Below, one piece after another: positions 15,330 to 25,950 of a DNA stretch of 25,950 bases. The DNA comes from a virus. The number at the start of each line of letters is the position of its first letter. Positions within the stretch are counted from its first letter, which is position 1. The notes under the pieces are model-generated. The model saw only the letters and a list, made by a program, of their open reading frames with translations. It was not told where the DNA came from and made no database searches. The position numbers were made by a program, and so were the translations under genes. The DNA lies in the IMG/VR virus record IMGVR_UViG_3300029982_000061, positions 1 through 25,950 of that record, one strand, 5' to 3'.

Positions 15330-15563
15330 ATGTCAGGGATTCTCGCCGCCGAAGGCATCATCACACTAGCCACGGAAGCCGCGCCTCTGGTTGAGGATGT
15401 GGTTGCGGGGGTTACCACCGAGGTTACCGACTTGACATCGGGCACCACGGTCACCCCCGCAGAGGAAGGCGCTGCGGTTACCGCGCTAGATACTGAAACG
15501 GCCACGCTGGAAGCCGATATTGCCGCGATCCCAAACGGGAGTCCGATCCCGTCGGGGGAGTAG
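15330..15563 (+). CDS. Small acidic protein of unknown function
   Basis: 77 residues from the ATG at 15330, four bases after the lipoprotein stop. Strongly acidic and Ala/Thr/Val rich (LATEAAPLVEDVVAGVTTEV, LDTETATLEADIAAIP), with no membrane segment, no Cys and no recognised motif. The stop codon overlaps the GTG start of the endolysin (TAGTG), so the two are probably co-translated. I cannot assign a role. Confidence 0.5.
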   Translation: MSGILAAEGIITLATEAAPLVEDVVAGVTTEVTDLTSGTTVTPAEEGAAVTALDTETATLEADIAAIPNGSPIPSGE

Positions 15564-16090
15564 TGTCCGCCTTCCGCGACTGCCTGGCGTTCACTTGGCT
15601 GCCTCAAAATGACGGGCAGCCATATCACGTAACGCCGGGCGATCCTGGCGGCGGCACTGCCTGGGGCGTCACGCAGCACACATGGGCGGCTTGGGCTGCA
15701 TCCCATGACGGCATGCCCGCTTCTGTTGGTGACGCCACCCAGGACGATCTGGCCCAGCTCTACCAGGCGCAGTTTTGGAATGCGGTTTCCGGGGATCTTC
15801 TGCCGAAGCCGGTCGCGCTAATGGTGTTTGATTTCGGGGTTGTTTCCGGGCCTGGAATGGCTCGGATGCACCTGCAAAGCGCGGTTGGGGTTCATGTTGA
15901 CGGCGACATTGGACCGGCCACGTTGGCGGCCGTGGCGGCTGAGGATGTGTCATCGATGGTCACGCAGCTGTGGCTCGATGCTGGGGCGTTCTATGATTCT
16001 CTGACCAGCGAGGCGCAGTTTGATCGTGGCTGGCATAGTCGGAATGATGCGCGGCGGGAATTGGCTGCCGCCTTGTTAATATCCCAATAG
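15563..16090 (+). CDS. GH108-type endolysin with non-canonical active-site motif
   Basis: 175 residues with a GTG start coupled to the previous stop. The pattern DPGGGTAWGVTQHTW (27-41), then LYQAQFWNAVSGDLLPKPVA, FDFGVVSGPGMARMHLQ, VDGDIGPATLAAVA and a C-terminal helix matches glycoside hydrolase family 108 (N-acetylmuramidase) with the peptidoglycan-binding region that usually follows. The family's EGGY segment with its catalytic Glu should lie just before DPGG, but here the sequence is PQNDGQPYHVTPGDPGG: no Glu, with Asp17 nearby. It cuts the cell wall at lysis. The last gene of the + strand block; no terminator was found after it. Confidence 0.75.
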   Translation: MSAFRDCLAFTWLPQNDGQPYHVTPGDPGGGTAWGVTQHTWAAWAASHDGMPASVGDATQDDLAQLYQAQFWNAVSGDLLPKPVALMVFDFGVVSGPGMARMHLQSAVGVHVDGDIGPATLAAVAAEDVSSMVTQLWLDAGAFYDSLTSEAQFDRGWHSRNDARRELAAALLISQ

Positions 16091-16258: not shown

Positions 16259-16386
16259 GCAGGTTTGTGACTGCAGGTGTAGTGTACTTTATGCAGGTGG
16301 TCAAGTATTTTGCAGGTCTTGTACTTTAATGCAGGCCAAACGGTTTATTGCAGGCATGTCTTATAATTGCAGGCTATAATGTAACC
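16259..16386. repeat. Iteron-like array of seven GCAGG cores, mostly 19 bp apart
   Basis: GCAGG cores begin at 16259, 16273, 16293, 16312, 16331, 16350 and 16369, so the spacings are 14, 20, 19, 19, 19 and 19. Six of the seven read TGCAGG(T/C). The 12-13 bases between cores are A/T rich and only loosely alike (several contain GTACTTTA or GTATTTT). A 19-bp period is not a multiple of three, so this is not coding repetition. Such spacing suits a row of protein binding sites (replication iterons, a repressor array or transposase sites). It fills the gap between the passenger genes and the transposase remnant. Confidence 0.75.
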
Positions 16387-16610
16387 TATTGTTTTTCCCA
16401 CCTTTTAGCGGCCGCGTTCTTAGCAATCTCAGCCCGCCGCTCTGGCGTCATATTCCTGGCACGCGCCTGACCGCCTAACTTGCCCAGCGTCGCCCCAGCG
16501 CTGGCGGCCGTTACAACATCCTCTTCCTCGCCGGTAGCAATCCGCATTACCTTCACGGCGTTGCCGATCACGTCGGCGGGGCGCTTCTCGCCTTTGGGGC
16601 CGCGCGGCAT
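16386..16610 (-). CDS. Small basic passenger protein of unknown function
   Basis: 74 residues starting MPRGPKGEKRPADVIGNAVK; this ATG has a GAGGA eight bases upstream, while an ATG nine bases earlier abuts that site too closely. The middle is acidic (TGEEEDVV) and the C-terminus is LGKLGGQARARNMTPERRAE then IAKNAAAKRW, a Gly/Lys/Arg-rich pattern I recall from many small alphaproteobacterial proteins of mobile DNA, sometimes labelled as nucleic-acid binding. It follows the 75-residue gene by one base, so they form an operon. No enzymatic motif. Confidence 0.65.
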   Translation of the reverse strand: MPRGPKGEKRPADVIGNAVKVMRIATGEEEDVVTAASAGATLGKLGGQARARNMTPERRAEIAKNAAAKRWEKQ

Positions 16611-16611
16611 C

Positions 16612-16839
16612 TCAGTCATCCTCAGAAAACAACGGCTTGGCCAACTCCTGCCGCAAAATCTCGGCCCCTATCGTTTTCAGGAATATCAGTTCCTTGATTA
16701 GATAATCCACATGGGCCTCAAACTCAGGTACGCCCGCAGCGCCTGGGAAGAACGCATTCCGAGAATCTTCCACCGTGTGGGGATGGATATAAATCTGCCT
16801 ATTAAGAATACTCACATTGAAGGTGGTGAGCTTGCCCAT
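16612..16839 (-). CDS. Small passenger protein of unknown function
   Basis: 75 residues beginning MGKLTTFNVSILNRQIYIHP, with a good GGAG seven bases before the ATG. The protein is mixed alpha/beta with a helical, Leu/Ile-rich second half (AHVDYLIKELIFLKTIGAEI), and no Cys, signal or membrane segment. I do not recognise it. It is first in a two-gene unit with the MPRGPKGEKRP protein inside the transposable element. A 9-bp inverted repeat sits 8 bases upstream of the start, so expression may be controlled by binding there. Confidence 0.6.
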   Translation of the reverse strand: MGKLTTFNVSILNRQIYIHPHTVEDSRNAFFPGAAGVPEFEAHVDYLIKELIFLKTIGAEILRQELAKPLFSEDD

Positions 16840-16871: not shown

Positions 16872-16918
16872 GCAATCTAGACTCAATAGCTAGTTTCAGT
16901 CCGTATCAATCTTGAGAT

Positions 16919-16938
16919 TTTCAAACTGAGACACTACC
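16919..16938 (-). repeat. Right terminal inverted repeat
   Basis: Exact complement of 16120-16139. Reading inward, one base differs and then TCTC matches again. Confidence 0.85.
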
Positions 16939-16946
16939 CGGAAATC
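16939..16946. repeat. Right copy of 8-bp target site duplication CGGAAATC
   Basis: Same eight bases and orientation as 16112-16119, immediately outside the right inverted repeat. On the minus strand it encodes part of DFR in the interrupted gene. Confidence 0.8.
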
Positions 16947-17142
16947 AAAGACCATTTGAATAGGCTGTTGGTCACTTTTCATGGCGTTATACGCCTCGAC
17001 GTCAGGGATGCGGATCATTCCAAGGGAGACGCCCCATTGAACAGCCTCACGAGGCAACGAAGGGACATGCCCATGCTTCTCTTCGAACAGGTGCCATATC
17101 CTTTGTAACTGCTCATTGTATGTCGCCACGTCAAAAAACTCC

Positions 17143-18930
17143 TTAGAGCGATGCTGGCGCCGGCACGCCCCAACCATCAACAACACTTGCCGGGGCGACA
17201 AATTGGCGAACCTTGACTTTGTATCTCGCCAACCAATCGTATCTTCCCATCTTCCGTTGCAATTGCCCTACTACAATCCCAGGATGCCGCTGTATTCGGC
17301 GAGCAAATCCGAGGGTATCTTTTTCAGAAATGAACGGGGATTTTCTCAGATAAAATGAGTTTAGTTCACTTCTAGGAGCGCAAAAATCAGCAGCAGCATT
17401 ATTTGCAATACGCTCCTCGTCTGGAACGCCATCATCTTCAAGATCATTGCACTCTAAGTCCGTGTCAACAGACTCCGCACTAAGCGTCTGTCCTCGACCA
17501 TGCTTTTGCAACACATGCTCAAGCTCGTGCCTTAACACAAACCAAAAATTATCAATTCTGTCTTGCCTGATTGTCATTCCAACAACGGGGGAATCGCCCA
17601 ACCAAAAGCAAACGCCATCTATATTTGCTTTTGGTAGGGTCTCCACGATAAGAAAACGAACTCCGCATTCCGATAACATTCTCGGAACGTGACGAACCTC
17701 TTCTGGGTCAATCATATAACGGGGAAACTCTGCAATTAACTTTTTTAATTTGATTTCAGAATAGATCGGAACGATCATTTCGGCGGCCAACTGGCGGACG
17801 CGGAATAGCCACGCTAATTGAGAGGGGGTTGTCTCTGCATAATCAGATTTCTTGGCTGCATGAGCCAAATATAGGATATCAGAAAGATCGTTCTTACAAA
17901 AAAATCGCATCATTTGCGCTTCAAGTAATCCGATATCACCATCTTCAAGCCACCCTCTACGAATCATCTCGCGAACGGGGTAAGTGCCCTGCAAAACTGC
18001 CCTGCGTTCGATCCCTGGGTCGGGCCTTCGAGCATTCGCCATTTCGTAAGATTGCTGAATATTGGCCCAGTATTCAGCAGATACATCGAATGCCTTACCA
18101 AAAGCTAACGCCATTTCGGGACTAATACCTCGCTTGCCAGCGATTATCATATTAACCGCTTGCTCAGGAGCATTGAGAATGTAAGACAGGTCACGTTGGG
18201 ACCATCCCCGAGCCTCCAATTCGTCTCGGACGAATTCTCCGGGATGAGGAATATCGGCAAGCCTTGATGCAATGGACATGATTTCCCCCGCTTCCATCTG
18301 TTCGGCGCGGTTGGAGGCCTTTTTCTTTGCAGCATTGATAACATTGTGTGAGGCTGCGGCATCGCGGCGACAAAAAATCGTGATCCCCCGGAAGCGGTGG
18401 TTCGTAGATTTCCACATTCCTATCGCGGCCTCTTGTTCAAATGCATCTTTTCGGTACATCGGGAGCACCTGGTCGAGCCAAACTATGTGCGCGCCAATTG
18501 GAAGTCTTTGGAGCGCGCGCATAACGACATTTCGTTTTACCATTGTAGTTTGATAATGCTCTGCATCCTCGACGCTGTATGGCGGATCAGCCAGCACCAG
18601 ATCATATTGTTGCAGAGGCACGCGCGTTAGAGTTTGAGCATCATCTACATAGGTGGGTTTTAGGGACTCGTTTATATCGACTGTATCCCCCGGAAAGGTG
18701 GAGAGATCGACTTGACCGCTAAAAAGATGCAGTACATGCTTTTTATCGGGAAAAAGCGCCTTTACTCGCCGCAGGTAGCCCGCCGGGTAACCACCATAAT
18801 AAGTCGATTTGACACGGTAATCATTGCCCATAATCCAAGTGCCGACCGCTCTGCCATCCGGCCCAACAAAAAGACATTTGGGAAAACCGGTTTCTTTGGC
18901 ATAATTTTCAATTCTCTCGTCCCACTGCAT
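17143..18930 (-). CDS. Fusion protein: DPPY DNA methyltransferase, HigA-like HTH, ImmA/IrrE-type metalloprotease
   Basis: Start at 18930: AAGGAGG lies seven bases before this ATG, giving 595 residues; an ATG 39 bases upstream lacks such a site. Residues 1-205 form a methyltransferase-like domain with HLFSGQ (68-73, SAM-binding loop position) and ADPPYS (114-119, catalytic motif IV of amino-methyltransferases). Residues about 225-300 match HigA-type XRE HTH proteins (HPGEFVRDELEARGWSQRDL, AGKRGISPEMALAFGKAF, YWANIQ). Residues about 375-530 match ImmA/IrrE peptidases, with zinc motif HELEH at 468-472 and a later Glu-rich helix (DEERIANNAAADF). HTH plus ImmA is a known pairing; the added methyltransferase is unusual. 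A second start is possible at Met218 (18279), preceded by GGGGGA, so a separate HTH-protease may also be made. Confidence 0.85.
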   Translation of the reverse strand: MQWDERIENYAKETGFPKCLFVGPDGRAVGTWIMGNDYRVKSTYYGGYPAGYLRRVKALFPDKKHVLHLFSGQVDLSTFPGDTVDINESLKPTYVDDAQTLTRVPLQQYDLVLADPPYSVEDAEHYQTTMVKRNVVMRALQRLPIGAHIVWLDQVLPMYRKDAFEQEAAIGMWKSTNHRFRGITIFCRRDAAASHNVINAAKKKASNRAEQMEAGEIMSIASRLADIPHPGEFVRDELEARGWSQRDLSYILNAPEQAVNMIIAGKRGISPEMALAFGKAFDVSAEYWANIQQSYEMANARRPDPGIERRAVLQGTYPVREMIRRGWLEDGDIGLLEAQMMRFFCKNDLSDILYLAHAAKKSDYAETTPSQLAWLFRVRQLAAEMIVPIYSEIKLKKLIAEFPRYMIDPEEVRHVPRMLSECGVRFLIVETLPKANIDGVCFWLGDSPVVGMTIRQDRIDNFWFVLRHELEHVLQKHGRGQTLSAESVDTDLECNDLEDDGVPDEERIANNAAADFCAPRSELNSFYLRKSPFISEKDTLGFARRIQRHPGIVVGQLQRKMGRYDWLARYKVKVRQFVAPASVVDGWGVPAPASL

Positions 18931-18963: not shown

Positions 18964-18985
18964 AATCATTACGTGATTTGTACAA
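18964..18985. promoter_or_regulatory. Palindromes in the divergent promoter region (possible operator)
   Basis: AATCA-TTACG-TGATT at 18964-18978 and the perfect palindrome TTGTACAA at 18978-18985 lie end to end, 34-55 bases upstream of the start of the fusion gene and facing a short + strand ORF. The gene encodes an HTH protein, so self-control through these sites is a reasonable guess. I could not place convincing -35 and -10 boxes. Confidence 0.35.
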
Positions 18986-20270: not shown

Positions 20271-20301
20271 AAAAAGAAAAAAAGTGACGGTTGTCCGTCA
20301 C
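20271..20301 (-). terminator. Intrinsic terminator of the early operon
   Basis: On the minus strand GTGACGG, a four-base loop (ACAA) and CCGTCAC are followed by TTTTTTTCTTTTT: a 7-bp perfect stem with a long T tract. The TGA stop codon of the upstream gene lies within the first arm of the stem. Confidence 0.9.
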
Positions 20302-21470
20302 TGCATCGCAGCCAGCGCCTTTTCAGCCATTTCGCTGATTTCACCGGCATAGCCAGCAAAATCTCCGCCCAAGGCTTCCATTTCTACCCACACAGGTCTG
20401 TTGAGATCGACCAGTTCACGGAGGGCCAGAACGCGGCCGGCGCCCTGCATTTTGGAGATTTCCTTGGTCCACCACGACAGCCAATCATCGCTGATTGGTA
20501 CGTTGGTATCTGGCTTATTTGGTGTCTTGATCAGCCAGCGGGACGGCACCGCAGTTTTGGCTATCTTGGTGGCTTCGGTTTTAGCAACCTCCCTTTCAAG
20601 CCGATCCATCTTCGATCCAATTTCTTCCTGAGCGCCGAAGAAATCAGAAGCCTTGGCGCCATCTTTGAGTTGCGTGTAAATCCCGCGCAATGTCACTAGA
20701 TGATCTGGCGTCATCGTATCCAGTGATGCGCCAATATGCCTCACCAAAGCCTTGTCGTTGATGCCGAATTCTTGACTGAACGCCATCACCATTTTGCGCA
20801 CCCGATCACCAAACGGCTCCTTGCCGCCGCTGATCATGGTTTTGCGACATTGTGCCACCGCATCATCGACTAAATCGCCCGGCAGAACGGCCAGGATACG
20901 GGCACGTAGGCGGCGCGCGCCTTGGTTGGCGGTTACTTCGTAAATATCACGCTCGCCCGTCAGGACGATGTTGCCGCCCTTTTTGTCGCGCACATGGGTG
21001 ACCGTGAATTTCTGGCTTGATCTGGCATTTGTTTCCAAATCCCAGGCATACGCTTCCATTTCCGATAGACCGGCAACGGTCGCTGTGCCTGGTTTGCGGC
21101 TCAATTCTGCCGTGCCAAACTCGATATTTCCCCAAATCCTGGCGAGTTCTTCGGCGAGGCGAATGCTCGGACCCTCCACCTTCTCGCCGCGATTGTAGGT
21201 GTAGATCGCGCTCTCGGCGAGGCCAAGGCGCTGGCATGCCTCCATCGCCCGTGCATAAGCCACTTGAGGATCGCGCGGGAAGCGCTTGGCGATAACCATG
21301 CGGCTTTGAACTTCGGCTGTGGCGCGCTGGCTCTCGATCGCCACCGCGCCGGCGTGGGTGCGATCATCGGTCTGGCGCTCAAACGGATTGTGATGGCTGG
21401 ATACCGGCAATCTGGTATCCTGCACAATTACATCGCCCTCATGGGGATCGTGGTTTGGCATGTCGTTCAT
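20298..21470 (-). CDS. Candidate phage single-strand annealing/recombination protein
   Basis: 390 residues. The core (about 55-235) reads VIAKRFPRDPQVAYARAMEA, YTYNRGEKVEGPSIRLAEEL, IWGNIEFGTAELSR, AYAWDLETN, DIYEVTANQGARRLRARILA and VLPGDLVDDAVAQCRKT. I recall this pattern from phage proteins next to recombination nucleases, usually unnamed. It is the last gene of an operon with a YqaJ-type exonuclease and a DnaQ-like exonuclease. Two-component phage recombination pairs a 5'-3' exonuclease with an annealing protein, so that role is inferred. It has none of the sequence motifs I know for RecT or Erf. The C-terminal third is helical and charged. Confidence 0.55.
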   Translation of the reverse strand: MNDMPNHDPHEGDVIVQDTRLPVSSHHNPFERQTDDRTHAGAVAIESQRATAEVQSRMVIAKRFPRDPQVAYARAMEACQRLGLAESAIYTYNRGEKVEGPSIRLAEELARIWGNIEFGTAELSRKPGTATVAGLSEMEAYAWDLETNARSSQKFTVTHVRDKKGGNIVLTGERDIYEVTANQGARRLRARILAVLPGDLVDDAVAQCRKTMISGGKEPFGDRVRKMVMAFSQEFGINDKALVRHIGASLDTMTPDHLVTLRGIYTQLKDGAKASDFFGAQEEIGSKMDRLEREVAKTEATKIAKTAVPSRWLIKTPNKPDTNVPISDDWLSWWTKEISKMQGAGRVLALRELVDLNRPVWVEMEALGGDFAGYAGEISEMAEKALAAMQ

Positions 21471-25043: not shown

Positions 25044-25396
25044 TCCCCACCCCCTTCGATGCGGCGGAAGCGGGCGCCGCGATAGAAAAAATTCTCGTTT
25101 CTCTTGTCATCGCAATACACCGTCACCATGACTCCACTCGCATTAGAAAGAGGCTTAATCATGTATTTCTTGCCTTTTGTAAGATCTGAAACACCGAGAG
25201 TTTCGATGCACTCAGCTTCGTAATATCCCTCCGGCAGTTCGGCTTCTCGCGCCTTGACAAGTCCGCCCCCGTCAAGCGATTCCAGCACCGGCCCCACATC
25301 CTCGGTGAGAAACTGAACAGCACGATCATATCGCTGCGCCTCGATCATTTTGAGCGCGGTGGCGAGCGAGGCTCGGGCGGTGGTGATGTCGGTCAC
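25040..25396 (-). CDS. Phage protein of unknown function
   Basis: 118 residues with a GTG start at 25396 that overlaps the previous stop (GTGA); longer readings run back through the upstream gene. The N-terminal 45 residues are helical (LATALKMIEAQRYDRAVQFL). The rest is a small beta domain, ELPEGYYEAECIETLGVSD, KGKKYMIKPLS, VMVTVYCDDKR, FFYRGARFRRIE, of the kind seen in short phage proteins that mimic SH3-like folds. No catalytic residues are seen. It lies in the same operon as the genes on both sides. Confidence 0.55.
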   Translation of the reverse strand: MTDITTARASLATALKMIEAQRYDRAVQFLTEDVGPVLESLDGGGLVKAREAELPEGYYEAECIETLGVSDLTKGKKYMIKPLSNASGVMVTVYCDDKRNENFFYRGARFRRIEGGGE

Positions 25397-25950
25397 GGCG
25401 CGTCTCCTTCGGTTGCTGGCTGGTCGTTCCACGTAGGGAAAGCCCGGTGTTCTACGCCATCGAGTAGGGCGCCGGAAACCTTTTTTCCTGCGCGCACCAT
25501 TTGACAACTATCGAATAAATCTATGCTGCGCGCTCGCACCCCCGTAGAGATATCAAATCCGCTACCGTCATAAACGCTGACCGCCCGTCGATTGCAGTTG
25601 ATAGCGCCATATGATGGCGCCCATTCTCCCCACTGCTTGAAAAAGAACGGGACACCGGCAGAGGCACACTGATTACGCAGCGAGCGCGCCCAATCGGGGT
25701 GCATAGGGCGCGCATGGGGGCCGCTTTCGCCGCCGCAAATTACCCAATCAACACCGGGTAGCCAGGATATTAGATTGATTTTGCCGAGCAGAGGCTCGCA
25801 CGAAAGAAACCGCTTAACCGCCGGCACCGCCAGCAAGTGCGGAATACGCCGATCGGCTTCTTCCTGGTTCTCCACCGTGGTGCCCAGCCACACATTCTTC
25901 CATCCCTCACCCCACGCCGGCGCGCCGATATCGGGGCTGGGCAGCATCTT
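25393..25950 (-). CDS. Phage Gp37/Gp68 (DUF5131) family protein, C-terminal part (5' cut by window edge)
   Basis: The frame is open to the window edge, so the start lies outside. The visible 185 residues contain NVWLGTTVENQEEADRRIPH, VKRFLSCEPLLGKINL, VDWVICGGESGPHARPMHPD, LRNQCASAGVPFFFKQWGEW and, near the end, AGKKVSGALLDGVEH. This series is characteristic of DUF5131/Gp37-Gp68 phage proteins. The N-terminal half of the family, with its conserved cysteines, is not in view. Function of the family is not settled. It is the first visible gene of the leftward early operon. Confidence 0.85.
   Translation of the reverse strand, partial: KMLPSPDIGAPAWGEGWKNVWLGTTVENQEEADRRIPHLLAVPAVKRFLSCEPLLGKINLISWLPGVDWVICGGESGPHARPMHPDWARSLRNQCASAGVPFFFKQWGEWAPSYGAINCNRRAVSVYDGSGFDISTGVRARSIDLFDSCQMVRAGKKVSGALLDGVEHRAFPTWNDQPATEGDAP

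Follow-up and report, generated by a model that had tools for sequence, protein, structure and literature searches.

In ImmR/ImmA, DdrO/IrrE and CapH/CapP, the peptidase cuts a separate repressor. Xre-COG2856 fusions share operons with RelE or PIN toxins and are often found in phages (Makarova 2009, PMC2701414). ImmA-type antitoxins are partner-swapping hubs, present in phage defence and in phage-borne systems (PMC10440598). PD-λ-2 was found in E. coli as an anti-phage defence system and consists of a HigB-like A, a HigA-peptidase B, and C. B alone is toxic, A neutralises B, and C is required for defence (PMC9519451).

The locus compared with these systems lies in a virus record from IMG/VR that is 25,950 bases long, the whole of which was analysed and is called the window. 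The source contig is an uncultivated myovirus-like phage. Its left half comprises contractile-tail genes on the plus strand, namely sheath, tail assembly chaperone, baseplate wedge, and lytic tail protein, and on its right side a block of minus-strand genes encodes a YqaJ/RecE-like exonuclease, an RNase_T-type exonuclease, and a DUF5131 protein. The DUF5131 / phrog_2045 gene at 25393-25947 is partial and is cut off by the contig end.

The fusion gene (17143-18930, minus strand) consists of a methyltransferase, a HigA-type helix-turn-helix (HTH), and an ImmA/IrrE-like peptidase. The minus-strand frame from 18969 to 17143 contains no stops and comprises 608 amino acids from the ATG at 18969 or 595 from the ATG at 18930; residue numbers of the domain matches follow the 608-residue frame. 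The ATG at 18930 follows a strong ribosome site (AAGGAGG, 18942-18936) and is thus the likelier start. This site also backs the start at 18930 given in a preliminary description of this DNA, and the strand, unstated there, is minus. The same description had claimed three domains in one chain, and matches to phrog_3816, TIGR02607, and PD-Lambda-2_B are indeed found in one open frame. The domain search and structure prediction that it proposed recovered three known domains, and an IrrE-type fold was matched by Foldseek. The three-domain frame is confirmed as real and is not a product of chance. The internal ATG at 18279 is the HTH-ImmA part's own start and has only a weak GGGGG upstream. The HTH-ImmA part could also initiate at this ATG, and the covalent link would then be less important.

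The methyltransferase domain (18340-18930, minus strand) has the motifs LHLFSG and ADPPYS and is assigned from a profile match, conserved columns, and the structural model. The profile phrog_3816, 'DNA methyltransferase', is matched at residues 12-202 (E 2.7e-40; profile positions 6-203 of 203), and ADPPYS at 18591-18574 is invariant or nearly so among relatives. The native C-terminal tail (18283-18339, minus strand) is recognised from the relatives' C-termini, is helical in the model, and ends ..EQMEAGE. No Pfam family was above its cut-off for this half. The AlphaFold models of the two halves, which were modelled apart, have pLDDT values of 83 and 84; a joint alignment of both relative sets came out misaligned. 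Foldseek assigns the methyltransferase half to the SAM-methyltransferase fold, with no close solved relative. Its plausible but weak matches are enzymes of the Trm11 / RlmLK type, which act on RNA, and the matches among viral models include both RNA and DNA methylases. The 'DNA' specificity is thus a prediction that comes from the PHROG annotation, and either DNA or RNA may be the substrate. In the same phrog_3816-type family, a viral-contig methyltransferase (L066:2110-3438) carries an apparent intein, which begins with C, ends with HN, and has a GGIIDGEG motif and a weak Intein_splicing match. This intein sits within the conserved YYGG/YPAGY loop, and its position there points to a functionally essential loop.

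The HigA-type XRE HTH domain (18025-18249, minus strand) matches the TIGR02607 HigA antitoxin model at residues 241-315 (E 2.5e-15), with 56.1 bits against a curated cut-off of 47.7. In Foldseek it resembles the operator-bound Pseudomonas HigA PA4674, with 42% identity and 0.9 Å across 72 columns. The region that follows (17146-18024, minus strand) is PD-lambda-2_B-like and ImmA/IrrE-like. The PADLOC model PD-Lambda-2_B (PDLC03982) is matched at residues 239-589 (E 1.1e-35); the match begins at profile position 56, and the first ~55 positions are absent in this HTH-ImmA family. HELEH is found at 17529-17515, and a downstream glutamate, E519, is the candidate third ligand; the H, E, and H of HExxH and this E are conserved. 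The C-terminal model is matched in Foldseek by IrrE (3dte), PprI (8sln), and CapP (7t5t), with E-values of ~0.006-0.009 and probabilities of 0.99-1.0; for IrrE the probability is 1.0, and the E-value of 0.006 is modest. Pfam Peptidase_M78 gives no match to the window protein but does match close relatives, such as L070 at 1.6e-5, above the cut-off. The HELEH motif, the downstream glutamate, and the zincin fold of the model lead to the prediction that the C-terminal part is an ImmA/IrrE-like metallopeptidase.

Relatives were collected by IMG/VR profile searches with each half, by GTDB contig searches, and by searches of phage and plasmid records. The sets comprise about 60 methyltransferase loci and 58 good HTH-ImmA loci, including some near-duplicates across samples. 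The methyltransferase relatives come from loci of viruses and of Acetobacteraceae, and every one of them is a stand-alone gene; their frames stop 0-53 residues past the domain, and none carries an HTH or a peptidase. The HTH-ImmA relatives are likewise separate genes (58/58), never beside a methyltransferase and usually in a HigB–HigA/ImmA–X operon. No locus among the two sets has both genes within the flanks fetched. Over the domain, the closest methyltransferases are L004 (91%), L005 (90%), and L006 (89%), from Acetobacteraceae or proteobacterial MAGs, and the closest HTH-ImmA proteins are from the viral contigs L117 (73%) and L070 (69%). The Acetobacteraceae genome G001 has both genes, on different contigs.

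A second fusion was not found in IMG/VR, in phage and plasmid records, or in 1,091 genomes. Genomes from the family (299), class (385), and phylum (398) of the Acetobacteraceae MAG with L004 contain no fusion, and no phage or plasmid record reached 80% query coverage in tblastn. A degenerate junction pattern scanned across viral contigs gave no match, and all hits of window peptides in genome contigs were stand-alone relatives. No syntenic relative was found through the neighbour genes at 20298-21470 and 15563-16090. The combination of three domains, earlier called unusual, is rare indeed, with a single occurrence in everything searched. Homologues as two separate genes, which the preliminary description had held against its proposal, did appear; they make the fusion peculiar to one contig, and it is not thereby unreal. 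Because of the single occurrence, conservation cannot support a function of the fusion, and nothing general can be claimed for a family with these three domains.

The junction (18277-18282, minus strand) comprises ATC at the position of the methyltransferase stop, followed by ATG, the native HTH-ImmA start. It reads GGG GAA ATC ATG TCC ATT GCA (MSIA..). The L117 counterpart reads HigB-TGA GGGAGGCCGAA ATG ACG ATT GCA (MTIA..), the HTH-ImmA gene starting eleven bases past the HigB stop. Methyltransferases of relatives end with ..RLEAAE-stop (L142) and ..NRAGRREA-stop (L006), and L141 has ..HQMEAAEQ. The ..EQMEAGE and MSIA.. of the window match the C-terminus and the start of relatives, so both genes were joined complete and the stop was replaced. 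In L141, near position 2150 of an Acetobacteraceae-family genome, the stop of a stand-alone methyltransferase was lost independently (TAG to CAG). All three positions of ATC differ from those of every stop codon, and the two alternative frames run through the junction without a stop; therefore no single-base error restores two genes. A frame-splitting indel near 18290, named beforehand as a refuting result, is unlikely: the alternative frames have no stop at the junction, and the reading frame of the methyltransferase holds through the final residue of its C-terminus. An indel artefact at the junction was also considered and is ruled out, as neither alternative frame stops there. The GC3 is 0.48 in the methyltransferase half and 0.43 in the HTH-ImmA half, and the nearest relatives have higher values of 0.60-0.79 and 0.52-0.62. 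Similar values in both halves, below those of the nearest relatives, fit a long joint residence in one genome. As judged from these comparisons, the fusion is a single-lineage read-through joining of two complete genes; the parts are known, and within the searched collections their combination has no precedent.

The surroundings of the HTH-ImmA part differ from those of its relatives. HigB is present in 30/58 of the relatives' loci, directly upstream where checked, and gene X in 52/58; the HigB of L117 matches PF05015. No HigB match occurs within the window, in line with the earlier view that the methyltransferase takes the place of HigB. The phage contig L070 (2900-3001) has an intact HTH-ImmA gene and, upstream, only scraps that resemble the start and end of HigB. 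The loss of HigB with HTH-ImmA kept thus has a parallel. Directly after the fusion lies a shortened third gene X (16896-17129, minus strand; GTG start at 17129) of 77 amino acids, recognised by alignment to the relatives' X. Its ribosome site, AAGGAG, is intact and overlaps the stop codon of the fusion. The window X aligns with the first ~45 and the last ~35 residues of the ~155-residue X of relatives, which indicates that about half of the protein was lost by an internal deletion that keeps the frame. PADLOC models gave no match to the HigB and X proteins of relatives, save a weak unrelated one to the X of L010, and none matched the shortened X of the window. The small protein MPRGPKGEKRPAD.. 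(16386-16619, minus strand) is a recurrent neighbour of HTH-ImmA-X modules and is also found at L117:4614-4829 and in L072, L078, L009, L170, L171, L173, and L006. Its orientation is mostly convergent to the modules, and in L006 it lies directly after the stand-alone methyltransferase.

All 87 methyltransferase columns with at least 90% conservation in relatives are kept in the window, as are 45/49 such columns of the HTH-ImmA part, where the substitutions are A>S, L>F, L>I, and L>F. The HTH-ImmA part comprises 378 codons without stops and keeps all invariant columns, including HExxH and the downstream E. Measured against L071, a relative common to all three, dN is 0.323 in the window, 0.326 in L070, and 0.296 in L117; the window is thus not evolving unusually fast when compared to stand-alone relatives. 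Synonymous changes between the window and its relatives are saturated, and dN/dS is not computable. The conserved columns and dN values show that both halves were constrained over most of their history; constraint after the fusion is not proven thereby.

Relatives have a palindrome ~40-60 bases upstream of higB, for example L010, L071, L080, and L119. Of 28 distinct upstream regions, 15 contain a palindrome with at least 8/9 paired arm positions, whereas shuffled sequences would give 1.6. The half-sites form the groups TTTACAC..GTGTAAA, TTAACG..CGTTAA, and AATTGACT..AGTCAATT, and the window's nearest relatives mostly have the TTAACG type, some imperfect. In the window, the operator type TTAACG-N5-CGTTAA is nowhere above chance, and the strongest palindrome in front of the fusion gene scores no better than chance. 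With the inherited operator absent from the window, simple autoregulation is not supported.

The best explanation, put forward tentatively and short of an even chance, is a single-lineage fusion that acts as a host-takeover or counter-defence protein aimed at host HigB-type modules. Early in infection, the phage would make one polypeptide with both activities. The N-terminal part would methylate nucleic acid, for protection from restriction or for host takeover. The C-terminal part, an orphan antitoxin-protease, would bind or repress putative host HigB-type modules of the same family, which would result in counter-defence. The covalent link would fix co-expression, and the HigA-type HTH may carry the methyltransferase to DNA. 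PD-λ-2B alone is toxic in E. coli, and so an orphan B-like half need not act as an antitoxin. A related and more doubtful reading is that a HigA-ImmA hub swapped its toxin for a covalently attached methyltransferase, and that methylation, operator binding, and proteolysis are coupled in a single-chain phage device, for example in counter-defence. Such a device could, for example, neutralise or silence host HigB-type defence modules while shielding phage DNA. ImmA-type HTH proteins pair with many toxins, and a methyltransferase as the fused partner would, if true, be a natural partner swap by gene fusion. The fusion would then connect, in a way open to test, the modification of nucleic acids with defence based on toxin-antitoxin modules.

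The strongest rivals to a counter-defence protein are a methyltransferase that restrains a toxic B-like half and a translated remnant tail. In the first, which is unlikely, the methyltransferase domain replaces the HigB-like subunit A and restrains the B-like half. The product would be a self-contained abortive-infection or superinfection-exclusion device, in which a trigger releases the protease-HTH activity. Overexpression of PD-λ-2B by itself is toxic, and A relieves the toxicity (PMC9519451); ImmA-type antitoxins change partners (PMC10440598). A is missing here and the methyltransferase occupies its place, but PD-λ-2 cannot defend without C, and the window has only a truncated third gene. 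Furthermore, the PADLOC models of A and C are unmatched by the window's HTH-ImmA module family, and the contact between the halves that this reading calls for is hypothetical.

The second rival is improbable as well. It holds that only the methyltransferase works and that HTH-ImmA-X, left over from a toxin-antitoxin module captured earlier, is decaying and is translated as a tail after neutral read-through. Against decay, the 378-codon domain is free of stops, all its invariant columns and 45/49 conserved columns are kept, and its dN to L071 (0.323) does not exceed the value for L070 (0.326), which is a stand-alone gene. The single occurrence of the fusion, the loss of HigB, the internal deletion of X, and the absence of the ancestral operator from the window would all agree with a remnant, as would the L141 methyltransferase, which also lost its stop and gained a short tail.

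A regulatory methyltransferase of the M.SsoII kind is quite unlikely. Here an operator-bound HTH would toggle the protein between methylation and repression and so control its own gene or a phage switch, and the peptidase would remove the repressor. The M.SsoII and Ecl18kI methyltransferases have an N-terminal regulatory region (PMC3978073, PMC6100179, PMC3695355), and HTH-ImmA relatives carry the palindromes upstream of higB (15/28 against 1.6 expected). However, neither the TTAACG-N5-CGTTAA type of the nearest relatives nor any palindrome 5' of the fusion is above chance in the window, and M.SsoII is a cytosine-C5 enzyme with its regulatory part at the N-terminus and no peptidase.

The contig is metagenomic and has no independent copy, but an assembly chimera or sequencing error that joined two unrelated genes is highly improbable: the join runs in frame exactly from last sense codon to start codon, no single indel yields a stop there, ATC is three bases away from every stop codon, X follows with its own ribosome site, and GC3 is alike in both halves.

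When compared to known systems, the fusion shares parts with several of them. Like the Xre-COG2856/RelE loci (PMC2701414) and RmrA of RosmerTA (PMC10440598), it has an HTH and an ImmA-type peptidase, a combination that is often beside a RelE/HigB toxin and common in phages. In contrast, the partners named by these papers are RelE, PIN, and other toxins, and their relevant passages contain no methyltransferase fusion (PMC2701414, PMC10440598). The orphan methyltransferases of phrog_3816, which are common in Acetobacteraceae chromosomes and uncultivated phages, match over the whole domain, but these relatives lack the HTH and peptidase that the window enzyme has. ImmR/ImmA, DdrO/IrrE, and CapH/CapP are similar in combining an XRE repressor with an ImmA-type metallopeptidase, and the fold of the fusion matches IrrE and CapP; none of them is known to have a fused methyltransferase. 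M.SsoII and M.Ecl18kI also have a methyltransferase and a DNA-binding regulator in one chain, whereas they are cytosine-C5 enzymes of restriction-modification systems with a short N-terminal regulatory region and no peptidase. PD-λ-2 differs in that the window has no A gene, a truncated third gene, and a methyltransferase fused to the B-like half; its A and C models are unmatched by the window's module family, and the first ~55 positions of the B profile are missing. It is similar in that the C-terminal 350 residues of the fusion match the B model and the relatives form an operon of HigB, HTH-ImmA, and a third gene. These relatives provide well-defined HigB–HigA/ImmA–X operons whose operators are clear, and they are candidates for PD-λ-2-like defence.
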